NCBI GenBank assembly: GCA_027596195.1
Contig: JADGJG010000013.1
Coordinates: 1 to 64,000 of the forward strand
DNA length: 64,000 nucleotides
Source: Podochytrium sp. JEL0797
Lineage: Eukaryota > Chytridiomycota > Chytridiomycetes > Chytridiales > Chytriomycetaceae
Reading direction: 5' to 3'
Shown here: in pieces, positions 20,634 through 60,769 of the stretch
How the letters are laid out: the number at the start of each line of letters is the position of its first letter
Numbering within the stretch: the stretch's first letter is position 1
Program-made: the position numbers and the translations under genes
Notes under the pieces: generated by a model
Databases searched by the model: none
What the model was told of the DNA's origin: nothing
The model's input: the letters and a program-made list of their open reading frames with translations, nothing else

Positions 20634-23570
<2,937 letters not shown>

Positions 23571-39625: not shown

Positions 39626-39979
39626 TCAAACAGTATATTCAGGCGGTCGGACCCCCCCAGAATCCCCTTCCACCTCACCCCCCTCCCGCTCATACCGCGG
39701 CAAAGTCGGCACCCGCTGCATATTATAATACCCCGGCACAGGCCCCAGACCCGGATCCGCTTCCAAATCGGACACCCACAGCCGCCCGGGCAAAGCCTCT
39801 TCATCCACCTTTTCGATTTTGAAAAAGGATAGCATGTATTTGAAGAGGTAAATGGTGGCCATGATGCTGAGGAGGACGAGGGTTACGGCGAGGATGATGG
39901 TGGTTGTTGCTTTTGAAAAGTAAGGGCTCAGTGATGCGTTTGGAGGAGCGGTGGTGCTATCGGGGTGTGGGATGTCCAT
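39626..39979 (-). CDS. Small single-pass membrane protein with LPRY and PPEY motifs (copy 1)
   Basis: Taking ATG 39979 (MDIPHPDST) gives 117 residues and matches the starts of both paralogues. A single membrane segment (ATTTIILAVTLVLLSIMATIYLFKYML) is followed by a conserved juxtamembrane block (ALPGRLWVSDLEADPGLGPV, then PGYYNM), LPRYEREG, an acidic Gly-rich linker and a C-terminal RPPEYTV. There is no signal peptide; a short luminal or outer N-terminus and a cytoplasmic tail are the likely topology. PPxY and LPxY are ligands of WW domains in NEDD4/Rsp5 ubiquitin ligases, so this looks like a ligase adaptor. That role is inferred, not shown. Frame upstream of the ATG is open but unlike the paralogues. 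Confidence 0.72.
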   Translation of the reverse strand: MDIPHPDSTTAPPNASLSPYFSKATTTIILAVTLVLLSIMATIYLFKYMLSFFKIEKVDEEALPGRLWVSDLEADPGLGPVPGYYNMQRVPTLPRYEREGGEVEGDSGGVRPPEYTV

Positions 39980-40509
39980 TCTAATGAAACTAAATCTTGC
40001 ACGGCTTTTCGAATGCCTGGGGAATGTCGAACCCAACGAGGTGGCGTAACTGATCATTTTTACAAGGTTAAAGATAAGCGTTAATCAATGTCAGAATTGC
40101 TCATTTTCTTTTCCTTTGGACCCTCAAGATTAAAATGAACGCAACCGTGCTTGGAGTCGCCTCGTGCATATGCCGAGTATGGTGGGCTTTCAGAGTCGTG
40201 CTGGACGGAAGTCCGAAATCAATCCGAAGAGGTGCGTCGTTGGCGACGCGAGAAAGTCCAGGTCCACACGAACCAAATCCCAGTGCTTTTCGGAGCAGAG
40301 TTTCTTGAAGCTCGATTCGATTTTGACGCGGTATCTGCGTGCGTGGCAAGCAGCAATTTTATCTGCTCGAACTATTTTCTAAAAAACGCGAATCGTAACA
40401 CTACCTGCTGCAAAACTTCCACACTTAAAACTGTGATATTTTGTGGAGAGAAGAAAAGAAGGTTGGACGGAATATTTGAATTGCGCCACCAAGAATCAGT
40501 TATCTATCG

Positions 40510-40624
40510 CCCTGCCACTGCGTCCTGTGATATAGTCCACATTATCACATCGCACCATCGCACCATGATACACGCAAAGCGGCTCAGTTTTGCGCGTCTC
40601 GTCATCAACACACAAATGCCCTAG
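40510..40624 (+). pseudogene. Relic of the epimerase-like gene
   Basis: The plus strand encodes CDIVHIITSHHRTMIHAKR and then LSFARLVINTQMP. This aligns with CDVADIVAACHCAMIHAKRVG and GFGRFVISATTPF in the intact gene at 38009-39073, 1.8 kb upstream in the same orientation. It is truncated at both ends and has diverged more than the Ap4A fragment. It stops after Pro. It cannot encode enzyme. Confidence 0.65.
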
Positions 40625-40752
40625 GGGTTTTAGAGATTATTGAGCGAGAATCCCAGGCCAAGCGTTTTCCTTTCAGCTGTTTATTGAAAACTAATCTACA
40701 TAAGATATAATGTCGTGCAGGCTCAAAATTTGATCAATCCAAGCGCGCGCTC

Positions 40753-41082
40753 TCAAACCGAATATTCGGGCGGTCGCGTCACCCCAGAGTCTCCTTCCAT
40801 ACCGCTCCCCTCCCGCTCATACCGCGGCAAAGACATCACCTGCTGCATGCTATAATACCCAGGCGCAGGTCCCGTCCCCGATTCCGCTTCCGCATCCGAC
40901 ACCCACAGCCGCCCAGGCAGAGCCTCTGGGTCTTCCTTTTGGTCGACTTTGAAATAGACTAGCACGTACTTGATGAGGTAAAAGACGGCCATGATGCCGA
41001 GCAAGATGATCGACATTGCGAGGATGTACTGGCTGAGGAAGGAGGAGAGAGGAGAAGCAGAATTGGGGTGTGGGATGTCCAT
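40753..41082 (-). CDS. Small single-pass membrane protein with LPRY and PPEY motifs (copy 2)
   Basis: A 109-residue paralogue of the protein at 39626. It starts MDIPHPNSASP, has one membrane segment (ILAMSIILLGIMAVFYLIKYVLV), then ALPGRLWVSDAEAESGTGPA with PGYYSM, LPRYEREG and the C-terminus TRPPEYSV. The conserved juxtamembrane block and both Tyr motifs keep the same spacing (about 17 residues between LPRY and PPEY) while the N-terminal and linker regions have drifted. This pattern argues that the tail motifs are under selection. The frame is uninterrupted. Confidence 0.75.
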   Translation of the reverse strand: MDIPHPNSASPLSSFLSQYILAMSIILLGIMAVFYLIKYVLVYFKVDQKEDPEALPGRLWVSDAEAESGTGPAPGYYSMQQVMSLPRYEREGSGMEGDSGVTRPPEYSV

Positions 41083-41946
41083 TTCTCTGAAACTAAATAT
41101 TTATGTGCTGCAAAAGCTCGCAAAGGCGTTTGAATATGGGATCAGTTGTGGGGGAACGTGTCGAACCCAGTGATGGCGTGTCAAGGATGCAGGGGGAAAA
41201 GGGTTCGTTTGACGTACCTTTGCAGCTCTCGTTAATTCAAACATTCGTCAGGATGAAGAAATGTGCCTATTCCTATTGGCCGGCACATCAACTTTGGCGC
41301 ACACACAATATCTTCCTTTACAATTTGACAGGTGGAAAAATTTTTAATTGACGCCTGTCAAGGGATGATGACAGCTATTCCTCCCCCATAAATGTATTGA
41401 ATTTTCAGGATCGCGAGGAGAAGAAGTTACGGGATCCAACGTTATTCCCCACAACCGCTTAGTCGTCTCGATTGAGAACGATGTGACTGCAGTTAGGGAT
41501 GAATAATTTTGTTTTATGCGATTGAGAATAAAAGGATCTGAGTTGGTTTGGGATGAAGTTACGTGTTTAGCTATAGCTGCTTTCAGCTTCTGCGCCAGGT
41601 GCGCGCGCCAAAACCAGCGGACCTTTAACGCCACCGAATGTTTTTCTGGCACGGTTGAAAATTACTGGTGGCGGATGGGAGTACATACATGTTGCAGCCG
41701 GTTGTTTATTTGAACCTTGCCATCTACCTCGTTGTTATTCTTCGGATTCGTAACTTTGGTGGCATTTCCGGCTTCCCGGCCCGGTTTGGTGGCGGATCGG
41801 GCGGAGTCAATTATTTTGAAGCAGGTTGTTACTCAGTATCTACCCTCGTGCTATGTAATTTCATGAAATTTTCTTTCCTCCACCTGACAGCATATAAATG
41901 TGGGTGATTCCGCTCAGAATCTTCATTCAAACCCAATCAGCCAACA
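41083..41946. other. Intergenic, no gene supported
   Basis: Short plus frames (41103-41351, 41516-41713, 41668-41907) have no recognisable features. The right end holds the TATA-like element of the double-psi barrel gene. I see no repeat or RNA gene. Confidence 0.5.
41893..41899 (+). promoter_or_regulatory. TATA box of the secreted double-psi barrel gene
   Basis: tataaat stands 48 bp before the ATG at 41947, preceded by a pyrimidine-rich stretch (ttttctttcctccacctgac). The position suits a core promoter. Confidence 0.5.
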
Positions 41947-42849
41947 ATGATCTTCTCTACTCTCAACTCTCTCGTTCTTTCCGCTGTTGCTCTCCAAGCT
42001 GCCGCCTTGCCAGCGACTTCCACAAACACGGCCGGATCCGAATGTGCCACTTTCGGAGAATGGGCCTGCGACGTGACGGAAACCGAACTCCTCCAGTGTG
42101 CCTATGGTCAAGCCGGACACACGCTTAATTGGCACGTTTCTGGAACTTCCTGCAACTATTGGAAAGAGTACCACGGCCTCGCTACCGCTGAAACCGTTGA
42201 AGCATCCACCACCACCACCACCAGCACCCAAGTTTCCGAAGCACCTGTTCAAACGGCGCCCACCCAAGGGACCACTGCGGTTGCTCCTGTTCCAACTTCC
42301 ACTGCCACCACCCCCGTGGTCGAACAACCCAAAACGACGACTACCCCTGCTGTTGAGCCACCGAAGACCACTACCCCTGCTGTCCAACCACCGACGACCA
42401 CGGCTCCGCCTCAACCACCCACCAGCTCCGCCAACATTCTAATCAGCGGATCTGGCTCCGGAACCTACTACTACGACATCTACAACCAAGTCTGCCCTGG
42501 GTTTACTCACTACGCCGAAAACCAGGGCATCACGGCTTGTGAGCCTTCCACGGGATACCAAACACTCGCCCAGCGCAACAACAACAATATCGTCGCAATC
42601 GCCGTGGACCAGTTGAGTGCCAACAAGGCCGGGTTGTGTGGTAAACGCGTGGTGGTCAAGTACAATGGGGAAGAGGTTGAGGGCACCTTTGTGGTTTGGG
42701 ACGCGTGTGTCGCGTGTACTGGTGGAGTCAAGATTGACTTTAGTTTGGGGGCTTTGGAGAAGATTGAGCCGGCTGCTTGTCATATGGGTGTGGTGCCGGG
42801 AATGAGCTGGGAGGTGACGGATGAGCAGGTGATTCCGTATGTTGCTTGA
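41947..42849 (+). CDS. Secreted protein: Cys-rich module, Thr/Pro linker, double-psi beta-barrel (RlpA/expansin-like)
   Basis: Signal peptide (NSLVLSAVALQAAALPA), then a Cys-rich module of about 40 residues (CATFGEWACDVTETELLQC ... LNWHVSGTSC) like those in the two chitinases. A Thr/Pro-rich linker of about 90 residues (TTTTPAVEPPKTTTPAVQPP) is probably O-glycosylated. The C-terminal domain of about 110 residues (YYYDIYNQVCPGFTHYAENQ, IVAIAVDQL, CGKRVVVKYNGEE, VVWDACVAC, IDFSLGALEKI) is a double-psi beta-barrel of the expansin/loosenin/RlpA kind. Related fungal proteins loosen or modify wall polysaccharide without hydrolysing it. Catalytic Asp in IDFS and WDAC context are kept. Single exon, 300 residues. 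Confidence 0.85.
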   Translation: MIFSTLNSLVLSAVALQAAALPATSTNTAGSECATFGEWACDVTETELLQCAYGQAGHTLNWHVSGTSCNYWKEYHGLATAETVEASTTTTTSTQVSEAPVQTAPTQGTTAVAPVPTSTATTPVVEQPKTTTTPAVEPPKTTTPAVQPPTTTAPPQPPTSSANILISGSGSGTYYYDIYNQVCPGFTHYAENQGITACEPSTGYQTLAQRNNNNIVAIAVDQLSANKAGLCGKRVVVKYNGEEVEGTFVVWDACVACTGGVKIDFSLGALEKIEPAACHMGVVPGMSWEVTDEQVIPYVA

Positions 42850-43078
42850 GCAAAGGGATTGCTAGCAAAGAAATAGAATTCGAATAAACAATATACCTAA
42901 TATTCCTATCACCCCTTCTTGAAATATGTGATTGTCACCTCGAAAATTCGCAAGGCAAGGCCTCCTTCAATTGAAAGCACATGCCCATAATACTTGAACA
43001 AGATCACAAAGGTGATTGGGGCATGGGGATGCTCCTTGGGGGTGCTCGTTGGATGAAATAAATATATTGATGGCGCCA

Positions 43079-43414
43079 TCAAACTACATATCCAGGCGGT
43101 CGCACCTCCCCATCACCCCCTTCCACCCCGCTCCCCTCCTGCTCATACCGCGGCAATGTCGGCACCCACTGTATATTATAATACCCCGGTACAGGTCCAA
43201 GTCCCGGATCCGCTTCCAAATCCGACACCCACAGCCGCCCAGGCAGTGACCGTCGGTCCTGTTTTTCGAATTTGAAAAAGTACGCTAGCACGTATTTGAC
43301 GAGTTGAATGGCAGCCAGGAAGCTGAGCAAGATGAGGGTTGTTGCGAGGATGATTCTAGTAGTTGGAGTGCCATTTGTAGAAGTGGTGTTGTTATCGGGG
43401 TGCGGGATGTCCAT
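43079..43414 (-). CDS. Small single-pass membrane protein with LPRY and PPGY motifs (copy 3)
   Basis: Third 111-residue paralogue (MDIPHPDNNTT). It has one membrane segment (RIILATTLILLSFLAAIQLVKYVLAYF), then SLPGRLWVSDLEADPGLGPV with PGYYNI, LPRYEQEG and C-terminus RPPGYVV. The PPxY core is kept although the middle residue is Gly instead of Glu. It is separated from copy 2 by the barrel gene, which is on the other strand. The juxtamembrane block is almost identical to copy 1, so copies 1 and 3 are the closer pair. Confidence 0.75.
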   Translation of the reverse strand: MDIPHPDNNTTSTNGTPTTRIILATTLILLSFLAAIQLVKYVLAYFFKFEKQDRRSLPGRLWVSDLEADPGLGPVPGYYNIQWVPTLPRYEQEGSGVEGGDGEVRPPGYVV

Positions 43415-43979
43415 TGTCGGAAACTGAATAGATTGTAAAAGGCTTTTGAAGTGTGGGGGTCGTGTCGAACCCAGTGATGATGGCGTATGTCTTCCAAGAT
43501 AACAAGTTCAGTGAAGGAAAAAAGGTTCATTTCCGCTTGCCTTTGACCTCGAGAAATGAGCATGTTGGCCTTAGGAGGAATGATCCACCAAAGCTGTTTG
43601 AAGCAGCTTTATCAAATGGCCGATGCTTGGCCCTCACATTTGCAGTTCAGCTGATGTCACGTGCGCCTCACAAGCCGGACACAAGCCAAAGGGGAAAGCA
43701 ATCAAAGTAATTCTGTTGGCTGACACCTGCACGCCCCTTTGCAAGCAGCATCTGTTCTGGCCACTTCCTACCTGACCAAATTTTCATAATTCTTCCCGTG
43801 AATCCCTAATCGGCAGAAATACGACGATCCTGCAGGGTGCCACTCAAATGTCACGAGTTTCGTCACGCGCATCGATCAGTTTCTTGTCGCGTGCTTGAAA
43901 GCTTTGCCATCTTCATCACGAGACATTGAAATGCGTATATATTCGGCCGCCCCTCGAGCTCTTTTCCAATCCACAACAA
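43415..43979. other. Intergenic with chitinase 2 promoter
   Basis: A plus frame at 43453-43710 has no domain and is not supported. At 43936-43943 the sequence tatatatt lies 37 bp before the chitinase 2 ATG and is a probable TATA box. Nothing else is evident. Confidence 0.5.
43936..43943 (+). promoter_or_regulatory. TATA-like element of chitinase 2
   Basis: tatatatt precedes a GC-rich leader (cggccgcccctcgagctctt) and the ATG at 43980. The spacing of 37 bp is short but usual for compact fungal genes. Confidence 0.45.
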
Positions 43980-45990
43980 ATGAAACTCGCCCTCCTCGCT
44001 TCCCTCACCATCGCGACGGCCGCCAACGCGCAGTCCTGCACGTTTGGAGCGTATCAGTGCTCTGGATCCACGACTCTCCAGCAGTGCACATACGGGGCCG
44101 GCAACGTTCTCAGCTGGACCACCGCGCAGACGTGTTCGAGTGGCACGGTTTGCAGCGTCTCTGGATACATTGGATGTATTGCGGGTTCGGCTGGAGCTAC
44201 AAGCACCACTGCCACTGCGGTCAAGACTAAGACGACGGCGGCTGCGACCACGGCCAAGGCTGTCACTTCCACGGCTGCGGTCACAACGACCGTGGCCAAA
44301 CCAACGACCACTACTGTGGCCGTTGCGACCACCACTCAGAAAGTTGTGCCAACGACGACTCCTGTCGTTGTTGCAACCTCCACTTCTGGGGGTGCTGTCC
44401 CCCCGGTCCTCGGCGCCCCGTGCTCTCCGTTCGGCGCGTCGGCTTGCGCCAACTCCGTCACTTACCAGTGTGCCTACAACAGCGCAAGTGTGCTGCAATG
44501 GGCCCAATGGTACACTGGTGCCTGTCCTGGCGCTACTACCACCGGGTCTGGACCCGTCACCACCGCGACGGCGGCTGTGCGTCCCTTCACGACTCCCGGA
44601 ATCATTGGTTTGTGCATTTTATTTCATTTTAAATTTTCTAGTCCCTTTCTAACACCAGAAAAATAGGGTACTGGACTAACTGGTCCCCATACTCCCGCGC
44701 CGAGAACGCCATCGACACTCTCGACCTCACCAACTTCACGACCATCAACTACGCCTTCGTGAATGTTTCCGCCGCGGGTGCACTCGTTTCCTTCGACCCC
44801 GTGATGGACGCGACGTGGTTGCCCAAGTTCAACGGTGTGAAGGCCAAGTACCCGAACCTCCGCACAGTCGTGTCTTTGGGTGGTTGGTCTGGGTCGACCC
44901 ACTTTTCAACGATTGCGGCGAGCGCGAGTTTGATTCAGACGTTTGCGAATAATGTGTTGGCGTATTTGGTTGCCAACAACTTTGACGGTGTGGATATTGA
45001 CGTGAGTTACTTAAATTTGCCTCGCTCTACTTTCCCCTTCTCATCACCCCCTTTTTTCCCCAGTGGGAATACCCAGGCGGTGGCGGAATCACCTGCAACG
45101 CCGTCAACAGCATGGACGCCGCCAACTTTGTCACCCTCCTCTCCGTCCTCCGCGCAACCCTCGGCCCACAACGTTCCATCTCCATCGCAGCCTCGGCCCT
45201 CGCGTCCCGCTACATTGACGGCAACGGCGTGAACCAAATCCCCAACATGATGAAATACATCAATTACGCGCAACTCATGTCCTACGACTTTTACGGATCG
45301 TGGGTCCCTTACTCGGACTTCAACTCGGCCTTGGATGTGCCTGGCCCCACTGACCCGCAAGAACCGGCTACGAACAACAAGGCGGCAGGGTACCCCGAAG
45401 GACTCACTCAAAAGGCGTCAGTCGCGTTGTGGCTCGCAGCTGGTGCCAACGCGTCGCAGTTGACGAACGGACTCGCTTTCTACGGACGCTCGTGGTCCGT
45501 GCAGTCCAACACCAACAACGGGTTGTACCAACTCTGCACAGGGAGTGTGTTGAACGCGACGAGTGGGATGCAGGAGGCGTGTCCCGGAATCGTCGGAGAC
45601 TACCTGGACAAGCTCAACTCTGGCCCTGGGGGAACGTGGTGTGACCCATGTGGAAGCTGTTATTTTGCCGGAGTGTGGATGTACAACAATTTGCGTGGAG
45701 AGACTGGGGGTGGGGATGGTGTGCAGGCGAGTCCTCCTTTGGCTTCGGGTCCCACGACTGGATCGAACGGATGGAACCGCCAGTACTTTAACTTTGCGCA
45801 GTCCCCTACGTTGTACACTTCGAGCTACAACGGCGCGTCGAGCTTTATTTCGTATGATGACCCCGTGTCGATTCAGGCCAAGGCGGCGTGGGCCAAGAGT
45901 GCTGGACTTGGAGGAACCATGATTTGGGAGTTGAGTCAGGACTACAACACCGAGTTGGTGAACGCTGTTCGTGCTGGATGGGGTAACTGA
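43980..45990 (+). CDS. GH18 chitinase 2 with Cys-rich modules
   Basis: Signal peptide MKLALLASLTIATAANAQ. Two Cys-rich modules (CTFGAYQCSGSTTLQQC and CSPFGASACANSVTYQC types) flank a Thr/Val-rich linker, then the GH18 barrel: TPGIIGYWTNWSPYSR, SLGGWSGSTHF, the active site DGVDID|WEYP (complete after splicing), LMSYDFYGSW, GLAFYGRSW and LGGTMIWELSQD. Introns at about 44610-44666 and 45004-45063; the second cuts the catalytic motif between Asp and Trp. It lacks the CBM5/12 domain of chitinase 1. Near the C-terminus an extra Cys loop (WCDPCGSCYFAG) is unique to this copy. About 620 residues after splicing. Confidence 0.93.
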
Positions 45991-46457
45991 AGGCTTTTTT
46001 TTCTTTGTGACGGTTGGGAAGTTGTTCTCGCCATGTGGCTCTGATGTGGCTCTATGATTTGGAAATATAGATATATGTGTTTGGATATGGATGGTTGCCG
46101 TTTCGGAATAATTTCCGCAGTTGTGCCGCAGTTGGAGGCTTTTCTAATTTTCTCCTTGACTTCAAGGCAACGAACGACCGTGGAGCAAGCTCTATTCCCT
46201 TATTATGGAATACTTTTTCGTCAAGGCCGAAACAAAACCGATAGCACACAAGCACGCACTGTTGGCCAGAATGGCGGCTCTTCGAACCCTTCCCTCCAGG
46301 AGCCTTTTTGAGTGGCACTCGCGCCGGGATCTTCCGGCGCCAAAGGGGCATTCCCACTGTCACTGACGGCGGTTGACTCATGATTCCTTCTCCCTCCGGA
46401 ATACGCGGCTTGTGTCGCGTTGCCACTCTTCCAACGCAAAAACTGTCCTGGAATCAC
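45991..46457. other. Intergenic, no gene supported
   Basis: Two overlapping minus-strand frames (46052-46426 and 46221-46562) have no family features. The second overlaps the first exon of the CoA-transferase gene on the other strand. I treat both as chance. Confidence 0.5.
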
Positions 46458-48174
46458 ATGCTCCGATTCTCCAAATCCTTCCGCCCCCTCGCACGGCACT
46501 CGCAAGTTCGCTCGCTGCTGACCCGCACGGGTCCGCCAAAGGAGGTAGTTATCCGTGATCATAACCGAGCATTACTTGTGATCTGACCTATCCTCTTCAC
46601 CAGTGCACTCCCGAGGAGGCTGTCAAAATCGTCAAGAGCGGCGACCGAATCTTTCTGCACGGCGTGTCGGTATGCGCTTCCCCGATCGTCTTGGCTTTTC
46701 TAACAGTGACCCACAGGCAACTCCCATGGCTCTCCTGCGAGCCCTCGAAAAGCGGGGTCCAGAACTCAAGAACGTCGAATTCATCCATCTGCACCTGAAC
46801 CAACCCAACCCGTACGCATTTTTCATTGTTATTCAACCGAATTGAACGCTGAATTCTCGCAAACAGATGCGCCACGCAAGAACTCCGCGACTCGTTCTTC
46901 ACAAACAACTTTTTCGTTGGCCCAAACCAGAGAAAACTCGTGGGCCAAGGCGTTTCCTCTTATGTCCCTCTGTTCCTGTCGGAATGCCCACTCGTGATGC
47001 GCGAAGGATATCTGCGCCCCGATGTGGCGTTCATCAATGTTTCGCCTCCGGATCAACACGGATTCGTGTCCCTCGGAACGGAAGTTGCTCTCGCGTTTCC
47101 GGCGGTTGAAACCGCCAAGATTGTGGTTGCGCAAATGTAAGCTGAGGTTTTGCAGATGCTTTCGAGCAATCAATTGACTCGAAATGGTACAGCAACCCGC
47201 GAGTCCCGCGCACGCACGGAGCTTCCTTTGTCCACATGGACTGTCTCAACTACGTATGTCACGTCGATGAGCCGCTGTTCAGTGCAGGTCCAGAGAAAGC
47301 CCCAACGGAGGTGGAAGCCAGGATTGGATCGACGATCGCGAACCTCGTGTCGGACGGCGCGACATTGCAGATGGGAATCGGGAGCATTCCGAATGCAGTG
47401 TTGGCTGGGTTGAAGAATCACAAGGGGCTCGGAGTCCACACGGAGGTACACGTTTTTCTATTTCAACGAACGCGTCCAGCACGTTTCTAAACGAGAAGTA
47501 ATTTAGATGTTCCAAGAAGGACTCATCCCTCTCATTGAAAGCGGAGTCGTGACCAACTGGAACAAGAAATTCATTGCCGGAAAAGTCGTCACGGCCTTTA
47601 TCGCGGGATCTCAGCGACTTTGTACGTGTTCTCCATTGCAATCTTATCCATATCGCCGATTGCACGCGAACACTAATCTCTTCCCTTGCTCGCAGACGAT
47701 TACGTCGACGATAACCCCCTCATCTACTTCGAAGACGCGAGCGTCGTCAACAACCCAGTCGTGATCGCCCGCAACCCCAAAGTCACAGCCATCAACTCCG
47801 CAATCCAAGTCGACCTCACAGGCCAAGTCTGTGCCGACTCCGTAGGCCAACGCCAAATCTCAGGCGTCGGTGGCCAAGTCGATTTCGAACGCGGTGCGGC
47901 CCTCTCGGAAGGCGGTCTTCCCATCATCACGTTGCCAAGTATCTCCAAGACGGGCGAGTCATGTATCGTTGCGCAATTGAATTCGGGCGCGAGTGTGGCA
48001 ACGACGCGGAACCATGTGCATTATGTAGTGACGGAGTGGGGTGCCGCGCAGCTGTTTGGAAAGAATTTGCAGCAAAGGGCCAAGGCGTTGATTGGAATCG
48101 CGCATCCGGATCATCGCGCTGCGTTGGAGAGGCAGGCGTTCCAGTATTTGGGGTTGAGGGCTTGGAGAGACTGA
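46458..48174 (+). CDS. Acetyl-CoA hydrolase/CoA-transferase family (4-hydroxybutyrate CoA-transferase-like)
   Basis: Members move CoA between acyl groups, for example acetyl-CoA to 4-hydroxybutyrate or succinate. The N-terminus MLRFSKSFRPLARHSQVRSL is a good mitochondrial presequence. Conserved blocks in order: TPEEAVKIVKSGDRIFLHG, RDSFFTNNFFVGPNQRK, RPDVAFINVSPPDQHGFVSL, DCLNYVCHVDEPL, GATLQMGIGSIPNAVL, LGVHTEMFQEGLIPLIE, the active-site region SAIQVDLTGQV and GVGGQVDF, then ITEWG-like VVTEWGAAQLFGK and LIGIAHPDHRAALE. About six introns of 50-65 nt; the first (46543-46602) is phase 0 (PPKE|CTPEE). Length about 470 residues fits the bacterial AbfT/Cat1-like branch. Confidence 0.87.
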
Positions 48175-49721: not shown

Positions 49722-49789
49722 CAGCGGGTGTGCTTTAACCTTTTATTTTATTTACAGAAACTTTACATTTCCAACCTTCAACCGCCGAG

Positions 49790-50385
49790 CTATGAAGGCA
49801 GATTTGATGGAATGCCATCCGCCACTGCCCTGTCCCTCGGAGCCGGTAATACCAACAACTTGCGCCACCTCGCCACACTATTCGTATTATACACAGGAAG
49901 CCCACTCGCAGCTTCCAAATCGGGATCTGTCAGATGTAGTGGCAGCTGAGAGGTTGGCTCATGCACGATTAGTTCAAATCGAACAGCTTCCTCCAGGTCC
50001 CTTGACATGATTTCCCCGTCCGACGATATCGCAGTACCCGCGTTGGTGGTTGTATCCTCCCCGGAAAGGACCGCGCCTCCATCTCCGAGAGAATACTTTG
50101 GCAACGGCTCTTCGGTAAAAAAGTCATGTGGCACCATCTGTGTGTCGTTGCCATGCAGACGCTTGCGAATCCGATCGCGGATGCATATGAAGCAGGAACA
50201 CAGAATACCGCAGATGAGAACAACCGCAAAGGCGGTGTAGCCGTACGTGAGGAGTGAGATGGAAGGGTCCTGTAAATCAATACTGTTAACGCTGAAGAGG
50301 AAAGGAGGCGGAGACGGCTCACCGGCGTGTAGTATGCGGGATAGGGATATGCCGTAGGAGTCGGTACTGGTTTTGAGGTGTTCAT
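49790..50385 (-). CDS. Single-pass membrane protein with two LPxY motifs (copy 1)
   Basis: Exon 1 (MNTSKPVPTPTAYPYPAYYT) is Pro/Tyr/Thr rich. A 50-65-nt intron (about 50271-50330) leads to exon 2, which starts before the membrane segment LTYGYTAFAVVLICGILCSCFICI. The tail then has a basic stop-transfer (RDRIRKRL), PHDFFTEEPLPKYSLG, a Ser/Thr/Glu-rich region, and DPDLEAASGLPVYNTNSVARWRKLL. The two LPxY motifs (LPKY, LPVY) are the same in all three paralogues. Their position suits binding of WW domains; an adaptor role is inference. No signal peptide; the short outer N-terminus could be O-glycosylated. Confidence 0.72.
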
Positions 50386-50696: not shown

Positions 50697-51319
50697 TCAC
50701 ACGGGGAATGAAGGCAAGTATGTGGGAATGTCATCCGCCACTGCCCTGTTCCTCGAAGCCGATAATACCAACAACCTGCCCCACCTCGTCACACTATTCG
50801 CATTATACACAGGAAGCCCACTCGCAGCTTCCAAATCGGGATCATCCGGCGGTGGTGGCAGCGGAAGCGTTGGTTCATGCAAGATAAGTTCCAATCGAAC
50901 AGCTTCCTCCTGGTCCCTTGGCATGATTTCCCCGTCCGACGACAATGCGGTACCCGCGTTGGTGGTCGCATCCTCCCCTGAAAGGACCGCGCCTTCGCCT
51001 CCAAGAGAATACTTTGGCAACGGTTCTTCAGTGAAGAAGTCATGTGGCACCACCATCTCTGTGTCATTGCCACGCAGGCGCTTGCGAATCCGATCGCGTA
51101 TGCACAAAAAGCAGGAAAACAGAACGCCGCAGGTGAGAAGGACCGCAAAGACGATGTAGCCGTACGTGAGGAGGGAGACGGAGGTGTCCTGTGGAATAGT
51201 CCTGCTGTCAGTGGTTTGCGCAAAGAAACGAGACAGAAAGGACTCACCGCCGTGGGGTAGTATAAGGGATAGGCCGAAGGTGTCGCGCTTGGTCTTGGTG
51301 TTGGTAGTGAGGTATTCAT
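50697..51319 (-). CDS. Single-pass membrane protein with two LPxY motifs (copy 2)
   Basis: Neighbouring paralogue of 49790-50385, about 310 bp away. Exon 1: MNTSLPTPRPSATPSAYPLYYPTA. An intron (about 51192-51250) precedes the membrane segment LLTYGYIVFAVLLTCGVLFSCFLCI. The tail repeats all landmarks (RDRIRKRLRGND, DFFTEEPLPKYSLGG, EIMPRDQEEAVRLELI, DPDLEAASGLPVYNANSVTR). Copies 1 and 2 are nearly identical in the tail, which indicates a recent tandem duplication. The DNA between them shows the promoter-proximal similarity expected of a duplicate. Confidence 0.72.
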
Positions 51320-51638: not shown

Positions 51639-52667
51639 ATGGGTCGCCTTGACGGAAAAGTGGCTGTAATTACCGGAGCCGGAAGGTGCAGCCCTGATCA
51701 ACTTCTGCCTAGTCTTCTCAGCACAAAACACAGCGGCATCGGGTTCGAAACATCGCTGCTTTTTGCGCAGGAAGGCGCCAAAGTTGTCTGCTGCGACATC
51801 AACCCTCTCGCCATTGCGGCCACTGTCGCCGCCATCACGGCCAAGTTTCCTTCCAAGGACGCAAAGCCAGCCGCCATCGCAGTGACCGTCGACGTGTCCA
51901 ACGAAGCGCACGTCAAAGCCGCCTTTGACGACGCCGAGGCCGTTTTTGGGAAAGTGAACGTGGTCTTCAACAACGCAGGAATCATGTATGTATTTAGTGC
52001 GGGGGGGTGCGTTTGTTTGGGATACATGTTGAGATGCGTTGGCTGGGTGGCGTTTCCCCATGTGCAGGCACGGGAGCGACGACAACGCCGAGGTTACCTC
52101 GGAAGCTGTGTGGGATCTGACCATGAAAATCAACGTGAAGGGAGTCTGGTGGGGCTGCAAGCACGGAATTCCAGCGGTAAAATCGCATGCCTTTTTGATT
52201 CCGAGGAACACCGAAAACTCACTCCCAATTTCCAGCTTCGCCGCGCCGGAGGAGGCTCCATCATCAACACAGCCTCTTTCGTTGCGTTGCTCGGCGCAGC
52301 CACCCCTCAAATCGCGTACACAGCCTCCAAAGGCGCCGTCCTCGCCATGACACGTGAACTCGCCGTTATCCACGCGCGCGAAAACATTCGTTTCAACTCC
52401 CTATGTCCCGGCCCGTTGAGAACGCCCTTGTTGATGGATTTCCTCAACACGGAGGAAAAAAAGGAACGCCGTCTCGTGCACAACCCGATGGGAAGATTCG
52501 GGGAGGCCATTGAGCAGGCGTATGCCGTTTTGTACTTGGCAAGCGATGAGTCTTCGTACACGACGGGAACCGAGTTTATGGTGGATGGCGGGCTTTCTGC
52601 CGCGTATGTGACGCCAACGGGGAATACCACCAGTCTGCCAGTTCACAAGAACTTTTCTGGAGTCTGA
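51639..52667 (+). CDS. Short-chain dehydrogenase/reductase (classical SDR)
   Basis: The first intron (about 51686-51732) splits the cofactor motif; splicing gives VAVITGAGSGIGFETSLLFA. The adenine-binding DINPLA and VDVSNEAHVKAAFDDAEAVFG follow. Then come NNAGIM, the active-site block SIINTASFVALLGAATPQIAYTASKGAVLAMT (Ser-Tyr-Lys triad), and CPGPLRTPLL. The C-terminus TTGTEFMVDGGLSAAYVT is standard. Introns also lie at about 51986-52067 and 52177-52238. Length about 280 residues. Substrate unknown; resemblance is to the 3-oxoacyl/levodione reductase-like branch. No targeting signal. Confidence 0.87.
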   Translation: MGRLDGKVAVITGAGRCSPDQLLPSLLSTKHSGIGFETSLLFAQEGAKVVCCDINPLAIAATVAAITAKFPSKDAKPAAIAVTVDVSNEAHVKAAFDDAEAVFGKVNVVFNNAGIMYVFSAGGCVCLGYMLRCVGWVAFPHVQARERRQRRGYLGSCVGSDHENQREGSLVGLQARNSSGKIACLFDSEEHRKLTPNFQLRRAGGGSIINTASFVALLGAATPQIAYTASKGAVLAMTRELAVIHARENIRFNSLCPGPLRTPLLMDFLNTEEKKERRLVHNPMGRFGEAIEQAYAVLYLASDESSYTTGTEFMVDGGLSAAYVTPTGNTTSLPVHKNFSGV

Positions 52668-52856
52668 AGTCCCGCCTTTTTTCCTTTCGGATGGAATAAA
52701 ATTGGAATTAAAAGTCGCGTTTTTCGGTCTTCACCCAAAATCGCCAGTCCAACACATAGCTCCAACAGCGTATAGACCTACTTAAAAACGCAAGATTCAG
52801 AAGCAGAAATCGTCGAATCCGGACTAAATCGTGGGGCACTTCATTTTCATTCCCCA

Positions 52857-53537
52857 ATGATCATACTAGCCGTTCTTTTCATTGGCGCCGCTTACGAAGG
52901 AATCAAAGCAGGCGCAAATCTCGCTAAAGGCAGACCAGCCAACTTCAACGTCACTGTCGCATTGAACCCACTGGCTGCCGTTGGCCAGGTTGTCCGAGAC
53001 ACCGTCAGCGGCGTCAGCGATCAGAGACGCGGAATCTGGATTGGACGACAATCTCTCGGAGATTACGGTGTCGGGGTCCAATTCTATCCTGGACTGGACG
53101 TGCATCACATGGTGGTTGTGATTGACGGTGCGTGTTGGTTTTTCTACTTCCACTGATCATGATTCATGCCGGGATGAAAACAGGTGTGTTCTATTCCCTT
53201 GAAGGGGATAATGGGAAGGTCTCGTCAATCGTGCCTGTAGATTTGACAGAAGACAAGAGGAAATCATTCAGATGGTCCCGCTTTCCAAGGAGTCCGAAAC
53301 GAGGACGAGAAGAGAGGCAAGCTCTCGCATCATTTAGAATGAGTGTGTTATTTTAACGCATTCTCATTTAGAGCTCAGTTTTGCATTCGCCACGTGCAAG
53401 GGCCCAACAGAATCTACCACCTGCTTGGCGACAACTGCCAATTGTTTGTCAAGCGCATGATCGCATTTACCTGCGACATATCAGAGCATAGAGCGCATTG
53501 TGAGATGGCCTTGACTGGAGGGAATTTGTTGTGGTAG
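52857..53537 (+). CDS. Membrane-anchored papain-like (LRAT/PPPDE-type) domain protein
   Basis: The N-terminus (MIILAVLFIGAAYEGIKAGAN) is hydrophobic and may anchor the protein. After an intron (about 53128-53185) come HHMVVVIDGVFYSLEG and, in a last exon, YHLLGDNCQLFVKRMIAF. The His early (HHMVV..D) and the Asn-Cys pair late (LLGDNCQLFV) match the permuted papain fold of LRAT, PPPDE and related acyltransferases/thiol hydrolases. A second intron near 53330-53370 is needed, but its exact edges are not resolved. Function is inferred from motif order only. The ATG at 52857 is the first after stops. Confidence 0.55.
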
Positions 53538-53651
53538 CCAAAAAGGGGGGGAAATCCGGACCAAACCTGGACTCGAAAGTCCGCATCTCGTTTCCTCTTC
53601 AACATCTTCGTTCCACATTTATTTTCAAAACCCAAAAAATCAAATAAACTC

Positions 53652-56600
53652 TCATCCCTTATAAGCCTGCCCCTCCCACTCCCCCACAATCTCCTTAAAC
53701 ACCATCCTCGCCGCTCCACCCGCCCCACCACCACCACTCTCCCTCCTCGACTCCACCAACCCCGCCAAAACAGCCTTCCGCCCAAAATCGCCACACAAAT
53801 CCAAAAGCGCAAACACCCCACTCGCAAGCGCTTTCCTCACATCCCCCGGGAACGGCGAACTACTCGATTGAATCGAAACGTACTCGGACACGAGGAACTG
53901 CGCGTGTTTCATGAAGGGGCGGACTGTGGCGGATGCCGAAGATTGCAAAATTGTTTGCTGCGTTGCGGAAGCGGTGCTGGTGTTCCCTGCGGCAGAAGAT
54001 TTCTGACCCGTCTTTTCAAGGATACGGGAAATGGATTCAGCCGCTTGCACAGGGTGACTGAGTCGCCGTTTTGAAAAGTAGGGGTACGGCGATTTCACAA
54101 ACGTTTCGACATGAGTTCCTGACGAATTCGAGTCACCGCGGAGGCCGCCCAGGTCTTGCTTGAAACAGTGCAAGAGGCCGCGGAGGACGCCGACAAACGA
54201 AGGGATTGCATCCACGAGGGGTTCGCGGCGGTGCGTGAGGAGGGTTGTGAGGAGGCGGCAGAGGGCGTCAAAGAGGTCGTCGGGGGTGAGGAAGGTGGGT
54301 GGGGTGGTGGGTTGCAGCGTGGAGAGGTAGAGGGGGCTGGTGGGGGAGGAGAGGAGGCAGCAGGCGTTGAGGACCAATGCAATGTCGGAGCTTTTCATTT
54401 CAAGCATCTGCGAGTTCAAATTAGCACCATAATGGAAACTTGTGAGTTGTGAGGACAAAATCAAAACCTTGTCGTCCGCCAATCGAGTCAACAACACAAC
54501 GCTCTGAACCGTCAAATCAATACTCGCGGAACCTTCCACAATCCGCGCCAAAACCACAATCACGCGTTGGAGAATCTTTCGAATCGACGCTCGCTTCACT
54601 ACATAAAGGAAAGATTTTAGGAAAAAAAGCCCCGAAAAAGGAGAGTAGCAAAAACACAAACCGCTCTTTTGAACACCCCCAATAATCACCACCAACAGAT
54701 CCAAAGCCGCCGGCAAATCCGCCGTCTCCGACAACACATTGTCCAACCCGAGAGCCAGTGGCACCAGCGATTCGACCAACTCCAAACTCGAGTTCAACAA
54801 CCCCAAAATCGGACCCGTAGATGCCGCGCTTTTGAACGCATATACTGACAGTGCAGCATGAATTGCAGAAATCGCAGTTGGATCTGTTCCATTCATTTAG
54901 CGAGTCTGCGCAAAAAGGAAACAGAGCTCCGAATAATACTCAACTCTTTCTCCACGCCGCCGTCTCTAAGGCCCAACACAAATTCACGAGATTCGCCAAC
55001 CCAGCCTCCTCAACACCTTCCGCTTGTCCTTCCAACTGATGCAACCGGATCGATAAAAACATGGCTCCCAACTCAATCACATGAGGAGACGCCGCGGCTC
55101 CCTCCTTGTGAACCCACTCCGAGAGTGTGCCCAGGAACGCGTTGGAAAACTCATATAGCTGTTCCAGAGTCTTTGAACCCTCTGTTTTCCACAACACGCA
55201 ACAAAAAACAAAAGAATCAGCTTTCGGTTTTTGCAACCACACAAACGCAAAACACAACGCGACAAGAAAAACTCACCCAAAACTCCATACCCTTCCTTCA
55301 ACAAAACCACCTGCTCCAACACCCTCCCCGCCGACCCACACACACCCCACTCTCCCACCACCCCTCCTCCCGCCTGAACCCCTTCCAACACACGCACCAC
55401 AACCGCCTCCGCCTCCTTCACCAACCCCTGCGCCAAATCCATCACTTTCCCCATCTGCACGTGTTTCCCATCTTCCACTTCCATCGCGTCTTCTTGCGCG
55501 CTGTCGGTTTGTTTTTTGGTAGATGCGGGGAGGGAGTGGGCGAGGGCACGTAGGAATGGGAGGCAGCGGTCCAACCATGTTGCTGATTCTGCTTTGCTGT
55601 GGTGATGCTGCAGGTTTGAAACCGTGGCGGTGAGGTATACGAGTGGGGTGGTGATGGATCCTTTGGGGAGGGATCCCGAGAATCGTTGCATCAGTTTGCT
55701 GCGGAGGGGAAATGAGGGGTTCAGTCAACTGCATCAAATAAATCAAACGCAGATTTTTACGTTAATGTGAGCTCTTGGATGAACCCCGTTTCGCGTTGGA
55801 GAACTGCCAAGAATGGGGGCTTGGTGGATGCATCGCCGCTCGAGGAGGATGCTGCGAGTTCATACGTTGACAGAGAATCCAAGAACCATTCGAGCACTTT
55901 GGGTGAATACAGCTGGAAATACACACAGAAGAAAACGCGTCAGCCACCATTCCCAAAAAAAAAAGACATTCACACACCGTAACCAACGTATCGTCACGAC
56001 TCTCCATAAACCTCGCCTCCAATTTTCGACAAACCGCAGCAAACCGCATCTTCCCCCCCTCTTTCTCCTGCTGTCCAGCAATCTCCGCCCGCGCGACAAG
56101 ACACTCCACAAGCACCAACACACACACCACCGCGTCACGTTCCTGGTGCAGAAAGCAAACGGTCGGGAATGTGTTCAAAATCGACACGAGTTCCCTGACG
56201 CGTGTGAAAGTTTGAGTTGGGAGAGTGAGTGTGGAGGGAGGAGCGGTCGGGAGGCTGGTTAATGTTTGGGTGACGGAAACGGCGAGGGAAGGGTGGAGAG
56301 GGGTGGATAAGAGAGTCATGATGGAGCGGGATGTGGTGTCGTGATTGGAGAGGTTGGTTTCGAGTTCCGACACGAGATTGGCAATCAGTTTGGGAAGAAA
56401 GATGTCTGTGTTTCGGATATTTCAGTCTCCAGGAAAAAAAAATCGGGACACACGCGTACCACGAATGGCTCGCAGCTCGTAAAATTGAGAACTCTGAAAT
56501 AAGCTAGCACTCAAGAGTCTCAAATCGTATTGTCCTTCATTCAACACCCGCGACGCGACACGTTCGTCCGACTTGATGGTTTCAATCAAAGTCTCAGTGA

Positions 56601-59266
56601 TATTCTCAATCTGCTTGGGTGTCGCCAAATGGCTTTTGCACAACAAAACACCATCAGTCCCGAAAACCAAAACTAAGACAAAAAACAACAACAAAAAAAA
56701 ACTCACCAAATCGGAACCAAATGATCCAACAAACACGCCCACACAGCCACCCCCAAATTCTCCTCCCCAACCCTCTCCAAGCTCCCATCCCACACCCCAC
56801 CCCCACCCTCACCACACTTCACCAACACCCCTTCCACCCCCGCCAACGCCCCTTCCACAAGCTCACACGCCAACGCCTCCCTCCGCGGGTCCACCGAATT
56901 ACCCGCCACACACTCGGCATGGAACAACGCTACACGCATCTTCAACAGTCGGATCTGCGCGTCTGCGTCTTGATGTTGCTGAATCGAGACGACGAATTCC
57001 GTTGAAACGCGACGCTTCCAAAACTCTTCACTCGACTGCATGAGTGCATACAACAACACCAATCCGTGTTTGACAAACACGCCTCGTTGGAGATCGTCTT
57101 CGTCGTCATGAGACCTCTTAAGTCCCTGTTTCACAGCCGTCGGGGAAACGAGCGGGACAACCACGCGATCAAACAGGGTATCTACGACTTCTCCGAACGC
57201 CTTTTGGAGGGCTGGAGCTGCCGCGACTTTGGGTGTGCCGTATTGAATGAGAAGCGCGAGCAGGTTGGTGAGGATGTCGATGGAGGTGGGTACGTGAAGG
57301 GTTGTGGAAGGGGAAGTGGTCACGGCTGAAGCAGCGCGCTTGTGTGGCGGCGCGTCTTGTTCGGGCTCGAGGAACTGATGCACGAGCATGGTGAGGAGCG
57401 GGGGAAGTTGGGCAGGAAGGGTTTTGGAAACGCAAATCGCGAAGGCTTTCAAAAATGCATCGTCCAACAGAATCGAGTCCGAGAGTTCGTTTTGCGAGAG
57501 TTCGGAAAGCGCGTTCAGGCATTGCGTCAAAAAAGTTTCGAGTTCTCGCGATTTGGTCAGCGTTTGCATCAGGAGGATTGTGAAGGAAAGGGCGGAGGCT
57601 CGAGATTCAGGCTTGGGCTGTGAAAAAGTAAGAAACGAGATATCAGAACAGATGCGAATCGGTCACATTTGACGCATGATTCTGTTTTGATCGCTTGATT
57701 TGGTCGCTTCGCTGATTCCCGACATCTCGAAGCGTTAAACCCATGCCCCACTCCACTCTCGTTTGACGCGCGAACGGCGCGAAAACTTGTTTCGTTTCCA
57801 CTCACTCTCCGACGCATTCGCTCCCTTGGAAACGCCCCACTTGGCAACTCACCAAAACAAGGAACCCCCACAACTCCTCCATCGATTCCATCACAATCGA
57901 ATGCTCAATCTGCATCAAGGACGCCATCGCGTCAAACACTCCACCGTGCAGCCGTCCCTCCAAATCCCGCAAGACACGCACAAACGCCGAATTCAAGTCC
58001 TTGAACAGCCTCAATTGGGATTGAGAGACGCGATCTTGGGTCGCCTTGTACACGTCCTGAAGGACGAGAACGTGAATCAGACGGCCAACGACGCCAGCGC
58101 CGCCAGACGATGTACTCCATTCGCTATCGAGGGTCATGAGTTTGGAGACGGAATCGATAAAGCCTTTTGGTGCGGCAGCGGGATGGAGAGATGATGGCGC
58201 TGAGACATGAATGAGAATCGAAAAGAGGGTCGTGAAGCAGGCAAAGTCGGCCGAGAAAGCGAGATTGGAATCTTGCGACTTGACGTTGCGTTTGCGGGAG
58301 TCGATAAATGCAGAGAGGAGGTAAGGGAATGCGCAGACGAGGTATTCTTTGGGTCCGTCTGTGTGGTGGGTTCCGAATGTCAAAACACAAGAAAAGTGTG
58401 CCGAAATCCGCCGCACCTTTCAGAATCTCCAAGAGACGATCGAACAACAGCTTCGGGTAACTGGTCTTCTCCTTCAATTGTTTCCCAGCAGTCAGATTCT
58501 TCAAGACAGTTGCGCAGGAATCTTCGAGAGAGGCGGTATTTGACTTTGAGGCGACAATGGTTTCCAACACGGTAACGAAATCCCTCATGTGGTCTTTATG
58601 GAACAAGGAGGATTCGATCATGTTGTTTGCGAGATCAACGCACACATGGTCAGTGGATCGCAAAAAGTGGCGCAATTCGAGTAGTGGAGCCAGCAAGGTG
58701 TCGAGAAACAGCTGAAACGCCTTCTTCTGGTTGGTGGTATTCTTCAATTGGTCGCTCGTTGTTTTCAGGATATTTGCCACGAGGTTCAGCAGTTGAATAT
58801 TTGAGATTCTTTGTTCAACGAGGGCGCGACAGGCAGCGCTGGCGACTTTTGCGTTTTCTTGGAGGGTCTCTCTGAGGTTCTTGTTTCTGTCCAAGAGGGA
58901 ATGGCACTTTTCGAGGGCTTTTACAAGGTCGTTGTCGTTGAGAAGCGACGCGTTGTTTTCAAAGACGGCGCAGAACAAAAGACTCGGCGCCAGTTTCGCC
59001 GCCGGTTTCTGGCGCACTTTGAGTTCGAGAACAAGCGAAAGCCCAAAAAACAACGCCGCCAAATCCGCTGCCGTCGCTGCCTTTTTGGCCGCGGAAAGCG
59101 CCGCGCCAATCGCAACGCAAAACAGCTGCAAAGAAAGATTCGCAACCCCAATGCTTCGTGATGTCACAATACGATGCAGAAACGATACGTCAAAGGTGTC
59201 GCCGGGTTTCTGTCGGAGGAACTGCGTCACTTGCTCGTGAGTGACCTCGGGTGATGTCATTTTCAT
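53652..59266 (-). CDS. URB2: Ribosome biogenesis protein URB2/NPA2
   Basis: URB2 (NPA2) acts in the nucleolus on early 60S pre-ribosomal particles. The gene spans about 5.6 kb with roughly ten introns of 50-75 nt and encodes an estimated 1,600 residues of alpha-helical repeat, in line with the 1,174 (yeast) to about 1,500 (animal) range. Helix-rich blocks include NLSLQLFCVAIGAALSAAKK, LLNLVANILKTTSDQL, LHGGVFDAMASLMQIEHSIV, LLDDAFLKAFAICVSK and LATPKQIENITETLIETIKS. The diagnostic C-terminal domain reads PFMKHAQFLVSEYVSIQ and ALASGVFALLDLCGDFGRKA, then FKEIVGEWEGQAYKG. The start is MKMTSPEVTHEQ, just 3' of a poly-A run on the plus strand. It ends 115 bp from the papain-like gene. Confidence 0.85.
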
Positions 59267-59306
59267 GTTGATGCAAAAAAAAAAAAAAAAATACGCAATC
59301 GCGGAA

Positions 59307-59601
59307 TCAAGAACAACTCGTTGTCCAGTGTCCAGGTGTAAGCTTATCTGACACCTGAAGTTCCCTCTTGCCGCGCTGCCGATCCTTGCGCGATTCAATG
59401 AAAATCATCGTGGTTTGAAGAATCAAATAAACCACCAAAACGGCGAGCAAGAAGTAAATGAAGGTCAGCACGTTGGAGCCCCATCCGAAATTCTGATTCC
59501 AAAAGTCAGCAATTGCACAGCAATTGCCGGAAAATCAACATGTCAGAACTCACCCCATCACCGGTCGAAAGATTCGAGGTGCTGTTTCCATTCGAAAACA
59601 T
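59307..59601 (-). CDS. Small spliced single-pass membrane protein
   Basis: Two exons (59554-59601 and 59307-59492) flank a 61-nt intron (59493-59553; GTGAGT...ATCAG). Each exon has good coding phase and together they give 77 residues: MFSNGNSTSNLSTGDG, then NFGWGSNVLTFIYFLLAVLV and a basic tail IESRKDRQRGKREL ending TTSCS. The first part has sequons for N-glycosylation (NSTS, NLST). One membrane segment (VLTFIYFLLAVLVVYLILQTTMIF) follows. No family is recognised. Neither exon is long enough to stand out by length alone. It lies 40 bp upstream of URB2, same strand. Confidence 0.6.
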
Positions 59602-60151
59602 CTGATCACTTGTTTGGTTCTGGCTTGTTTGGTTCTGGATGCTCATGTTTCGATCTGGCAGTGCGCGCGAATCAGACTGGCGGTGAAATTCTGTCGATGG
59701 GGCGAATCTTCCAGGAATCTCTCAGGAACCTTGGCAAAGAATCACTCTTGCGCTATAAGAGCTTCGATTTAATGAATGAACTGAGCAAATCATTTGTCGT
59801 TTTACGTTATCAATTGGTTTTACGGAATCAATCAAACCAAAAAATTTCCACCCATCTTTTTACGTAGTGCTGAGGAAGAAAGGGGATTTCCAGCAATCAC
59901 ATGTCCATTAGAACAGCGATCTCCTAGCGTCCGATCCGACACCTTTCCCTCTGTACTTGCAATGGCATCCGGCTCCCCCAACGGGGTGATTGCTAGTGCA
60001 CTGCAGGCATGGATGAAGGAAATAACGAACCACCCAAGCGCGCTCCCACACATACACACCACACACTGGCACACATCACACGGAGATAAATGAAAATTCA
60101 GAGAACTTCCTCGATATTTTATTCTTAATTCTCGCAGAGAACTGAAGAAAA
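59602..60151. other. Intergenic, no gene supported
   Basis: A minus frame at 59832-60155 (Cys/His/Ser-rich, 107 residues) lacks recognisable features. The right end may carry the 3' part of the LPxY copy 3 transcript. I see nothing else. Confidence 0.45.
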
Positions 60152-60769
60152 TCAAAGCTCACTCAGAATCCACAAAGGCAAACGCGGTGATCGACCATCG
60201 GCCGACACCGTCGCCCTGCCCCTCGGAGCCGACAATACCAACAACCTGCTCCACCTCGTCACACTATTCGTATTATACACAGGAAGCCCACTTGCAGCTT
60301 CCAAATCTGGATCCGCAGGCGGTTGTGGCGGCAGAGGGGCTGTCTCGGGTAAGATAAGGTCCAATCGAAAAGCTTCAGCCTCCTGGTTCCTTGACATAAT
60401 ATCCCCATCCAAAGACACCGCAGTACATGCGCTGGTAGTCGCACCTCCGAGAGAATACTTTGGCAACGGCTCTTCGGTGAAAAAGTCATGTGGCACCATC
60501 TGTGCGTCATCGCGGCGCAGGCGCCTGCGAATCCGATCGCGGATGCATACAAAGCAGGAAAATAGGATGCCGCAGATGAGAAGAACTGCAAAGATGATGT
60601 AGCCATATGTGAGGAGGGCGACGGAACTATCCTGTGAATCATTTCCGTTGTCAGTCGTTTGCACAACACGAGATGAAAAGTAGCAGAGAGGACTCACCGA
60701 TGTGGGGAAATACGTGGGGTATGCCGCAGGAGTCGCGCTTGCGCTTGGTGTTGGTAGTGATGCGTTCAT
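60152..60769 (-). CDS. Single-pass membrane protein with two LPxY motifs (copy 3)
   Basis: Paralogue of 49790 and 50697, 9 kb away. Exon 1: MNASLPTPSASATPAAYPTY; intron about 60634-60700 (GTGAGT...ACAG); membrane segment LLTYGYIIFAVLLICGILFSCFVCI; basic RDRIRRRLRRDD. The tail holds DFFTEEPLPKYSLGG, a shortened Ser/Thr part, EAEAFRLDLILPE, and DPDLEAASGLPVYNTNSVTR. Compared with the others the middle of the tail has a deletion of about 15 residues, but both LPxY motifs are kept. The last 25 residues (after LLVLSAPRG) are unlike the paralogues. Confidence 0.72.
   Translation of the reverse strand: MNASLPTPSASATPAAYPTYFPTSVSPLCYFSSRVVQTTDNGNDSQDSSVALLTYGYIIFAVLLICGILFSCFVCIRDRIRRRLRRDDAQMVPHDFFTEEPLPKYSLGGATTSACTAVSLDGDIMSRNQEAEAFRLDLILPETAPLPPQPPADPDLEAASGLPVYNTNSVTRWSRLLVLSAPRGRATVSADGRSPRLPLWILSEL

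Follow-up and report, generated by a model that had tools for sequence, protein, structure and literature searches.

An array of single-pass membrane proteins with paired LPxY and PPxY motifs at one locus of the chytrid Podochytrium sp. JEL0797: candidate adaptors for an Rsp5-type ubiquitin ligase

Genes and motifs of the array

The DNA analysed here, referred to as the window, comprises positions 1 to 64,000 of contig C35 (JADGJG010000013.1) of the chytrid Podochytrium sp. JEL0797, the assembly of which (GCA_027596195.1) holds 24.4 Mb in 995 contigs. A preliminary description of this window, made from the letters alone, reported eight membrane proteins of three families with the tail motifs LPxY and PPxY, the two forms of PY motif reported for the WW domains of the ubiquitin ligase Rsp5, LPxY being a determinant for Rsp5 (PMC1557994). 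Translation confirms the motifs in all eight, i.e., LPRY plus PPEY in the products of 39626 and 40753, LPRY plus PPGY in that of 43079, LPKY plus LPVY in those of 49790, 50697 and 60152, and the ends PPPEYS and SPPEYS of the SAM-domain exons at 7209 and 11966, respectively. The first six belong to an array which runs beyond the end of the window and comprises 13 genes for proteins with a single transmembrane segment (TM) in 31.5 kb, all on the minus strand (Table 1). The cluster of dual-PY membrane proteins is thus larger than had been claimed, and the earlier observation was both right and understated.

Family 1 comprises g39, g40 and g43, and family 2 comprises g49, g50 and g60, with products of 180, 187 and 183 residues once the first exon is placed. 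The stop-to-stop open reading frames (ORFs) at 49790, 50697 and 60152 extend past the true genes, which start with a short exon (MNTS, MNTS and MNAS, respectively) followed by a GT-AG intron and the TM exon; all three joins were re-checked. Those of 50697 and 60152 correspond to a best-scoring splice model, while that of 49790 lies outside the four listed models and was read by hand, its N-terminus agreeing with the NCBI entry HDU98_001647. The C-terminus of that entry departs from the open frame. A second entry, HDU98_001641, covers g39 but has a different C-terminus without PPEY; two paralogues keep the tail that it lacks.

When C35 was read to its end, seven extra minus-strand single-TM ORFs were found at 65.4-71.2 kb, and no array-type ORF past 71.2 kb. 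These ORFs were first chosen for having a motif; a genome search with family 1 returned two further copies at 67.8-68.7 kb of C35. LPxY with a C-terminal PPxY, the latter 2-7 residues from the end, is present in nine of the 13 proteins, LPKY with LPVY in three and LPKY alone in one (g65). With family 1, family 2, g68, g66, g70a, g67a and g70b as queries (g65 not among them), the genome searches placed array members on C35 only, plus one pseudogene-like copy on C284. The further copies that the preliminary description had proposed to seek therefore number seven on C35, along with the C284 copy.

Table 1. Coordinates of array genes, the C284 copy and the SAM-domain genes
Feature	Contig	Position	Strand	Description
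g39, family 1	C35	39626..39979	minus	117 aa; single TM, predicted N-outside; LPRY 21 residues from end, PPEY 2 from end
g40, family 1	C35	40753..41082	minus	109 aa; TM, LPRY, C-terminal PPEYSV; no N-glycosylation sequon ahead of TM
g43, family 1	C35	43079..43414	minus	111 aa; TM, LPRY, C-terminal PPGYVV
g49, family 2	C35	49790..50385	minus	exon 1 50323-50385 (MNTS...); intron 50270-50322 (GTGAGC...TTACAG); exon 2 with TM, LPKY, LPVY
g50, family 2	C35	50697..51319	minus	exon 1 51248-51319; intron 51189-51247; exon 2 with TM, LPKY, LPVY
g60, family 2	C35	60152..60769	minus	exon 1 60698-60769; intron 60632-60697; exon 2 with TM, LPKY, LPVY
g65	C35	65430-65840	minus	LPKY only
g66	C35	66090-66470	minus	LPMY, PPEY
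g67a	C35	67048-67314	minus	LPPY, PPTY
g67b	C35	67706-68032	minus	LPLY, PPVY
g68	C35	68362-68835	minus	LPLY, PPEY
g70a	C35	70127-70672	minus	LPKY, PPNY
g70b	C35	70766-71158	minus	LPRY, PPDY
Family 2 copy	C284	22057-22488		pseudogene-like, near contig end; no visible start; LPKY kept, stop where LPVY expected
SAM exon	C35	7209..7694	minus	ends PPPEYS; thought joined to ORF 7714-9534 (one possible intron 7690-7738)
Ectodomain ORF	C35	7714..9534	minus	Cys-rich ectodomain and TM; PF11912-like (28.0 bits, just below cut-off 28.6); thought same protein as 7209
SAM exon	C35	11966..12361	minus	ends SPPEYS; thought to go with ORF 12456-14855
Ectodomain ORF	C35	12456..14855	minus	two PF11912 (CfaA_B_C)-like units (41.5 bits, cut-off 28.6) and TM; thought same protein as 11966

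The frequency of the motifs was scanned in stop-to-stop ORFs of at least 50 residues in which a hydrophobic segment is followed by LPxY or PPxY. On the minus strand of the array (39.0-71.3 kb), 13/29 TM ORFs have at least one motif and 12/29 have two or more. The corresponding numbers are 3/120 and 0/120 for the opposite strand and the remainder of C35, 13/1972 and 0/1972 for 40 shuffles of C35, and 10/176 and 0/176 for 35 other loci (133 kb), which came from the WW, HECT, SAM or array searches, overlap in part and are not a random sample. The three hits elsewhere on C35 are two plus-strand ORFs and one SAM exon, and among the ten hits in the comparison loci one HECT exon occurs four times and the C284 copy twice. 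For two or more motifs, the comparison of the array with the rest of C35 gives a Fisher P of 3e-10, which is overstated, since the limits of the array were set with the hits already known and families 1 and 2 are three related copies each. When the genes are grouped as nine lineages (a grouping of our own), two motifs are present in 8/9.

A hydropathy scan revealed one hydrophobic region in each of the 13 proteins. The segment ahead of it has 10-33 residues and includes an N-glycosylation sequon in 11/13, while, within 15 residues of the TM, the 13 proteins together have 4 Lys or Arg residues before it and 51 after it. Based on the charge bias and the sequons, the array proteins are predicted to be single-pass with the N-terminus outside and the tail in the cytosol, and the prediction goes against the extracellular tails which had been named as grounds for rejecting a role in ligase binding. 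Past their first 20 residues the tails have a total of 16 lysines in 922 residues, six of these in g65, and none at all in 5/13. A Yxx-hydrophobic signal overlaps the C-terminal PY motif in four of nine proteins (YVSV, YIAI, YIPV and YICI).

Conservation and homology

The nine proteins with LPxY and PPxY were aligned, three of them without all or part of the first exon, and no column is invariant apart from L, P, Y and P, P, Y. Since the extra ORFs had been picked by motif, homology was tested with the motifs masked. Among 2779 ORFs, the masked family 1 profile placed g68 (E value 3.3e-4) and g67b (E value 4.5e-3) next after its own members, and with both of these added it found g66 (E value 2.8e-4). 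The invariant columns of these six homologues are W, S, G and E together with the six motif residues. When the tail of g39 was read as 68 patterns of the form XX.X, only the positions of LPRY and PPEY were kept in 5/5 of the others, the next best pattern being kept in 3/5. Over the array the motif codons vary silently, with TTG, CTG, CTC and CTT for Leu, CCG, CCA, CCC and CCT for Pro, and TAT and TAC for Tyr. Judged from these alignments, no part of the tail is under stronger constraint than the motif residues, which speaks against motifs evolving as freely as their flanks; the comparison is among paralogues, not across species.

Within family 1, pairwise synonymous divergence (dS) is 0.38-0.45 and non-synonymous divergence (dN) 0.19-0.32; the corresponding ranges in family 2 are 0.26-0.54 and 0.12-0.17. 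The fixed motif codons of both families show 0-1 synonymous and no non-synonymous differences per pair, so that a within-family test of the motifs has little power, and long identical blocks also surround the motifs. The proposal that motifs are kept while flanking sequence drifts is therefore weak for families 1 and 2 themselves, and finds its support in the divergent copies past the window. Among the remaining matches, those of C756 and C279 to g70b look spurious on reading, and a weak match of C691 to family 2 (E value 0.15) overlies a proline-rich simple repeat.

None of the 13 array proteins scores above the cut-off of a Pfam family, and by the searches made the family is new in sequence. 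Chytrids are unmentioned in the matches listed for the PY motif and Nedd4 literature, and JEL0797 is unnamed in the matches listed from the literature search; judged by title, those listed on SAM or counting-factor receptors and chytrids deal with other subjects. Adjacent to g65, a DDE_Tnp_4 transposase frame (C35:64879-65421) ends ~10 bases from the stop codon of the gene, and an insertion may have replaced the g65 3' end; no leftover LPxY or PPxY was found beside g65 (minus strand, 61.4-65.5 kb), and the inverted repeats around the transposase are only weak. A small minus-strand gene of the window at 59307-59640 has one hydrophobic segment and N-glycosylation sequons in its first exon, with no PY motif, and may be a motif-less relative of the array. 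Neighbouring genes include a plus-strand GH18 chitinase gene (window 45001-45990), located between genes of the array, and, beyond its end, a frame for a polysaccharide deacetylase (C35:71886-72314); a link of the array with chitin handling through these neighbours is speculation.

The ligase, known PY adaptors and the SAM-domain proteins

On contig 401, three WW domains are followed by a HECT domain, the best PDB match being yeast Rsp5 (E value 8e-145). An exon upstream resembles the Nedd4 C2 domain by eye, with no Pfam match. Judged by the WW and HECT domains, the genome encodes a WW/HECT ligase of the Rsp5 type, which is the kind of partner the preliminary description had suggested seeking. 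WW matches in the genome number at least 23, over many contigs. A homologue of Ndfip/Bsd2 is found on C418, where the open frame directly upstream holds LPQY and LPLY. The match and this frame are likely one gene, and since the two adjoin, LPxY is probably present in a recognised ligase adaptor of this fungus. Activation of WWP2 by NDFIP2 requires several PY motifs (PMC12720080).

Comm, PRRG, Rcr and Shisa are short single-pass proteins with L/PPxY motifs, and the conservation of Comm outside its motifs is described as remarkably low (PMC5578492). Comm (Commissureless) brings Nedd4 to Robo1 via its PY motifs as a Nedd4 substrate adapter (PMC12101832). Like the array proteins, it is short and single-pass, has no signal sequence, and combines cytosolic LPxY and PPxY with low conservation elsewhere (PMC5578492, PMC12101832). 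However, the PPCY of Comm (220-223) precedes its LPSY (229-232), whereas LPxY comes first in the array and PPxY lies near the C-terminus; the two were compared by description. Comm is described in these sources as insect-only (PMC5578492, PMC12101832). The vertebrate PRRG1-4 share with the array the order LPxY then PPxY in a single-pass cytosolic tail (PMC5578492), but have a Gla ectodomain, in contrast to an outer part of 10-33 residues with no Pfam Gla match. The yeast proteins Rcr1 and Rcr2 (PF12273) resemble the array in being fungal, single-pass and equipped with PY motifs, and are partners of Rsp5 (PMC5578492). Membership of the array in the RCR family was not supported, as PF12273 has no match at E value ≤10 in any of the 13 proteins; the genome gave no RCR match either, a weak negative, as control genomes also gave none. 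Interaction with Nedd4 was once thought dispensable for the midline role of Comm, and that with Rsp5 for the chitin role of Rcr1 (PMC5578492), so that a PY motif may in some cases work independently of the ligase.

The Nedd4/Rsp5 membrane adaptors of the Ndfip/Bsd2 group (PF10176) are like the array in having several PY motifs. Ndfips have several TM helices and the PF10176 domain, while the array proteins have one hydrophobic region and no PF10176 match at E value ≤10. The features that the array holds in common with Commissureless and PRRG are the single TM with a predicted cytosolic tail in all members and two PY motifs in 12/13. The alternative suggestion of arrestin-like trafficking switches found no support, since Pfam gave no arrestin profile match and the array proteins are single-pass.

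The SAM-domain proteins had been counted as part of the cluster. The two SAM exons of the window score below the Pfam cut-off for SAM_PNT (15.9 and 22.6 bits against 24), while two paralogues score above it (24.8 and 27.5 bits). The ORFs upstream of the SAM exons encode Cys-rich repeats like those of the counting-factor-associated proteins (PF11912), with a TM assigned by eye, and AlphaFold models are of low confidence (mean predicted local distance difference test score, pLDDT, 51 for the SAM model and 34 for the ectodomain). A genome search at E value ≤10 gave 11 SAM hits, strong on three other contigs (C246, C361 and C873) and weaker on more. Nine of these, in which a look at the sequence showed a TM in the SAM ORF itself or upstream of it, were aligned, and all nine end in a PY motif (six in PPEYS or PPEYF, the others in PPSYIG, PPAYQTRNK and LPLYY); six of the nine are close relatives and the other three are weak hits (E values 4.4e-4, 3.6e-3 and 0.15). 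The two left-out hits, on C832 and C5, have no PY end in the frames read, and the genes are perhaps incomplete. On C144, the order ectodomain, TM, SAM and PPSY is found within one open frame, the SAM part of which has an insert that may be an unspliced intron. Contig 235 (match 21541-21780) encodes a DOMON-like ectodomain below the Pfam cut-off, a TM recognised by eye and a SAM match, itself weak, that ends in LPLYY. Ectodomains of more than one type may thus be combined with a SAM-PY tail. Rather than belonging to the cluster, as had been supposed, the SAM proteins form a receptor family of their own that is dispersed in the genome.

Adaptors, cargo or other partners

We infer WW binding, an adaptor role and cargo specificity from the motifs, the topology and the presence of the ligase. 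Binding of the array tails to Rsp5 WW domains, whether as adaptors or as cargo, is probable; that the array encodes locus-confined single-pass adaptors for the Rsp5/Nedd4 ligase is the interpretation we favour, with less assurance. In such a model the outer segment, which is short and mostly has a glycosylation site, and the TM would sit with a cargo membrane protein, while the tail, with its two PY motifs (LPxY then a C-terminal PPxY, or LPKY and LPVY in family 2), would occupy two of the three WW domains in the ligase. The docked ligase would then ubiquitinate the cargo, which would be sent to the vacuole or prevented from staying at the surface, in the manner of Commissureless with Robo1. 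With the outer segment, TM and linker diversified around fixed motifs, each cargo would have an adaptor of its own. If this holds, the family would work in the manner of Commissureless, PRRG and Rcr, and the idea of a set of membrane adaptors for ubiquitin ligases, already put forward for this window, is partly supported.

Several points weigh against an adaptor array. PY motifs are found in ligase substrates too, and WW proteins other than the ligase may bind them. Profile comparison gave no support for homology of family 1 with family 2 (probability 1.3%), the family 1-type and family 2 profiles aligning over ten columns at LPxY only, and for g67a, g70a, g70b and g65 neither the masked nor the unmasked search supports homology with family 1 (E value 0.28 or worse). 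The motif-less ORF at 59307 matches the masked profile as well as g67a does (E value 0.12 vs 0.2), g65 has no second motif, and some exon 1 models are weak (low splice scores in g66, g67a and g70b; that of g70a was placed by eye, the script having found none). Protein searches with family 1, family 2 and the nine-row alignment returned matches in Podochytrium sp. JEL0797 only, which does not imply absence from other chytrids, as even JEL0797 yielded only two array proteins as NCBI entries; with no relative found outside this genome, conservation rests on paralogues.

Turnover of ENaC subunits is set by binding of the ligase to a PY motif which overlaps a Yxx-hydrophobic endocytosis signal. By analogy, the array proteins might themselves be cargo, i.e., small surface receptors or sensors with their own turnover set by Rsp5. 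The motifs and topology also fit such a role, and the same overlap is seen in 4/9 C-terminal motifs, but the tails are lysine-poor and the 10-33 residues before the TM offer little for sensing, so that we regard this as unlikely, if the most serious competitor. The Yxx-hydrophobic overlap and the scatter of the 23 WW matches over many contigs would also agree with binding to another WW or SH3 protein, or to AP adaptors via the tyrosine signals, in scaffolding or sorting free of ubiquitin. This appears improbable, as the forms reported for Rsp5 WW domains are LPxY and PPxY (PMC1557994), and no position other than L, P, Y and P, P, Y is fixed, the hydrophobic residue at +3 being replaced in g70a (YVVA) and g70b (YVLD). 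Finally, both motifs are short, LPxY being present in ~7% and PY motifs in ~4% of yeast proteins (PMC1557994); just two array proteins were returned as NCBI entries, and the ORFs outside families 1 and 2 were initially motif-picked, all of which would suit chance motifs in Pro/Tyr-rich tails of unrelated or spurious ORFs. Against such an origin stand the two-motif enrichment, the homology found with masked motifs together with the retention of only LPxY and PPxY among the 68 patterns in all six homologues, dN values lower than dS within families 1 and 2, and the short exon and GT-AG intron ahead of the TM exon in family 2, and we give it very little credence.

Under the favoured adaptor interpretation, a wider scenario is that the fungus independently evolved, and expanded in one locus, Commissureless-like adaptors assigning one ligase to many cargoes, while the C-terminal PY motif of the TM-SAM receptors feeds the same ligase in parallel; we hold this to be possible rather than probable. 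Nedd4/Rsp5 ligases rely on adaptors for their choice of cargo, and an array with constraint confined to the docking motifs would be a natural experiment on the minimal needs of an adaptor. Since almost all of the sequence apart from the motifs drifts, such families escape similarity searches; a scan for topology plus motif finds them. If the scenario is true, the Commissureless design arose again outside animals, and the array could bear on remodelling of the chytrid cell surface.

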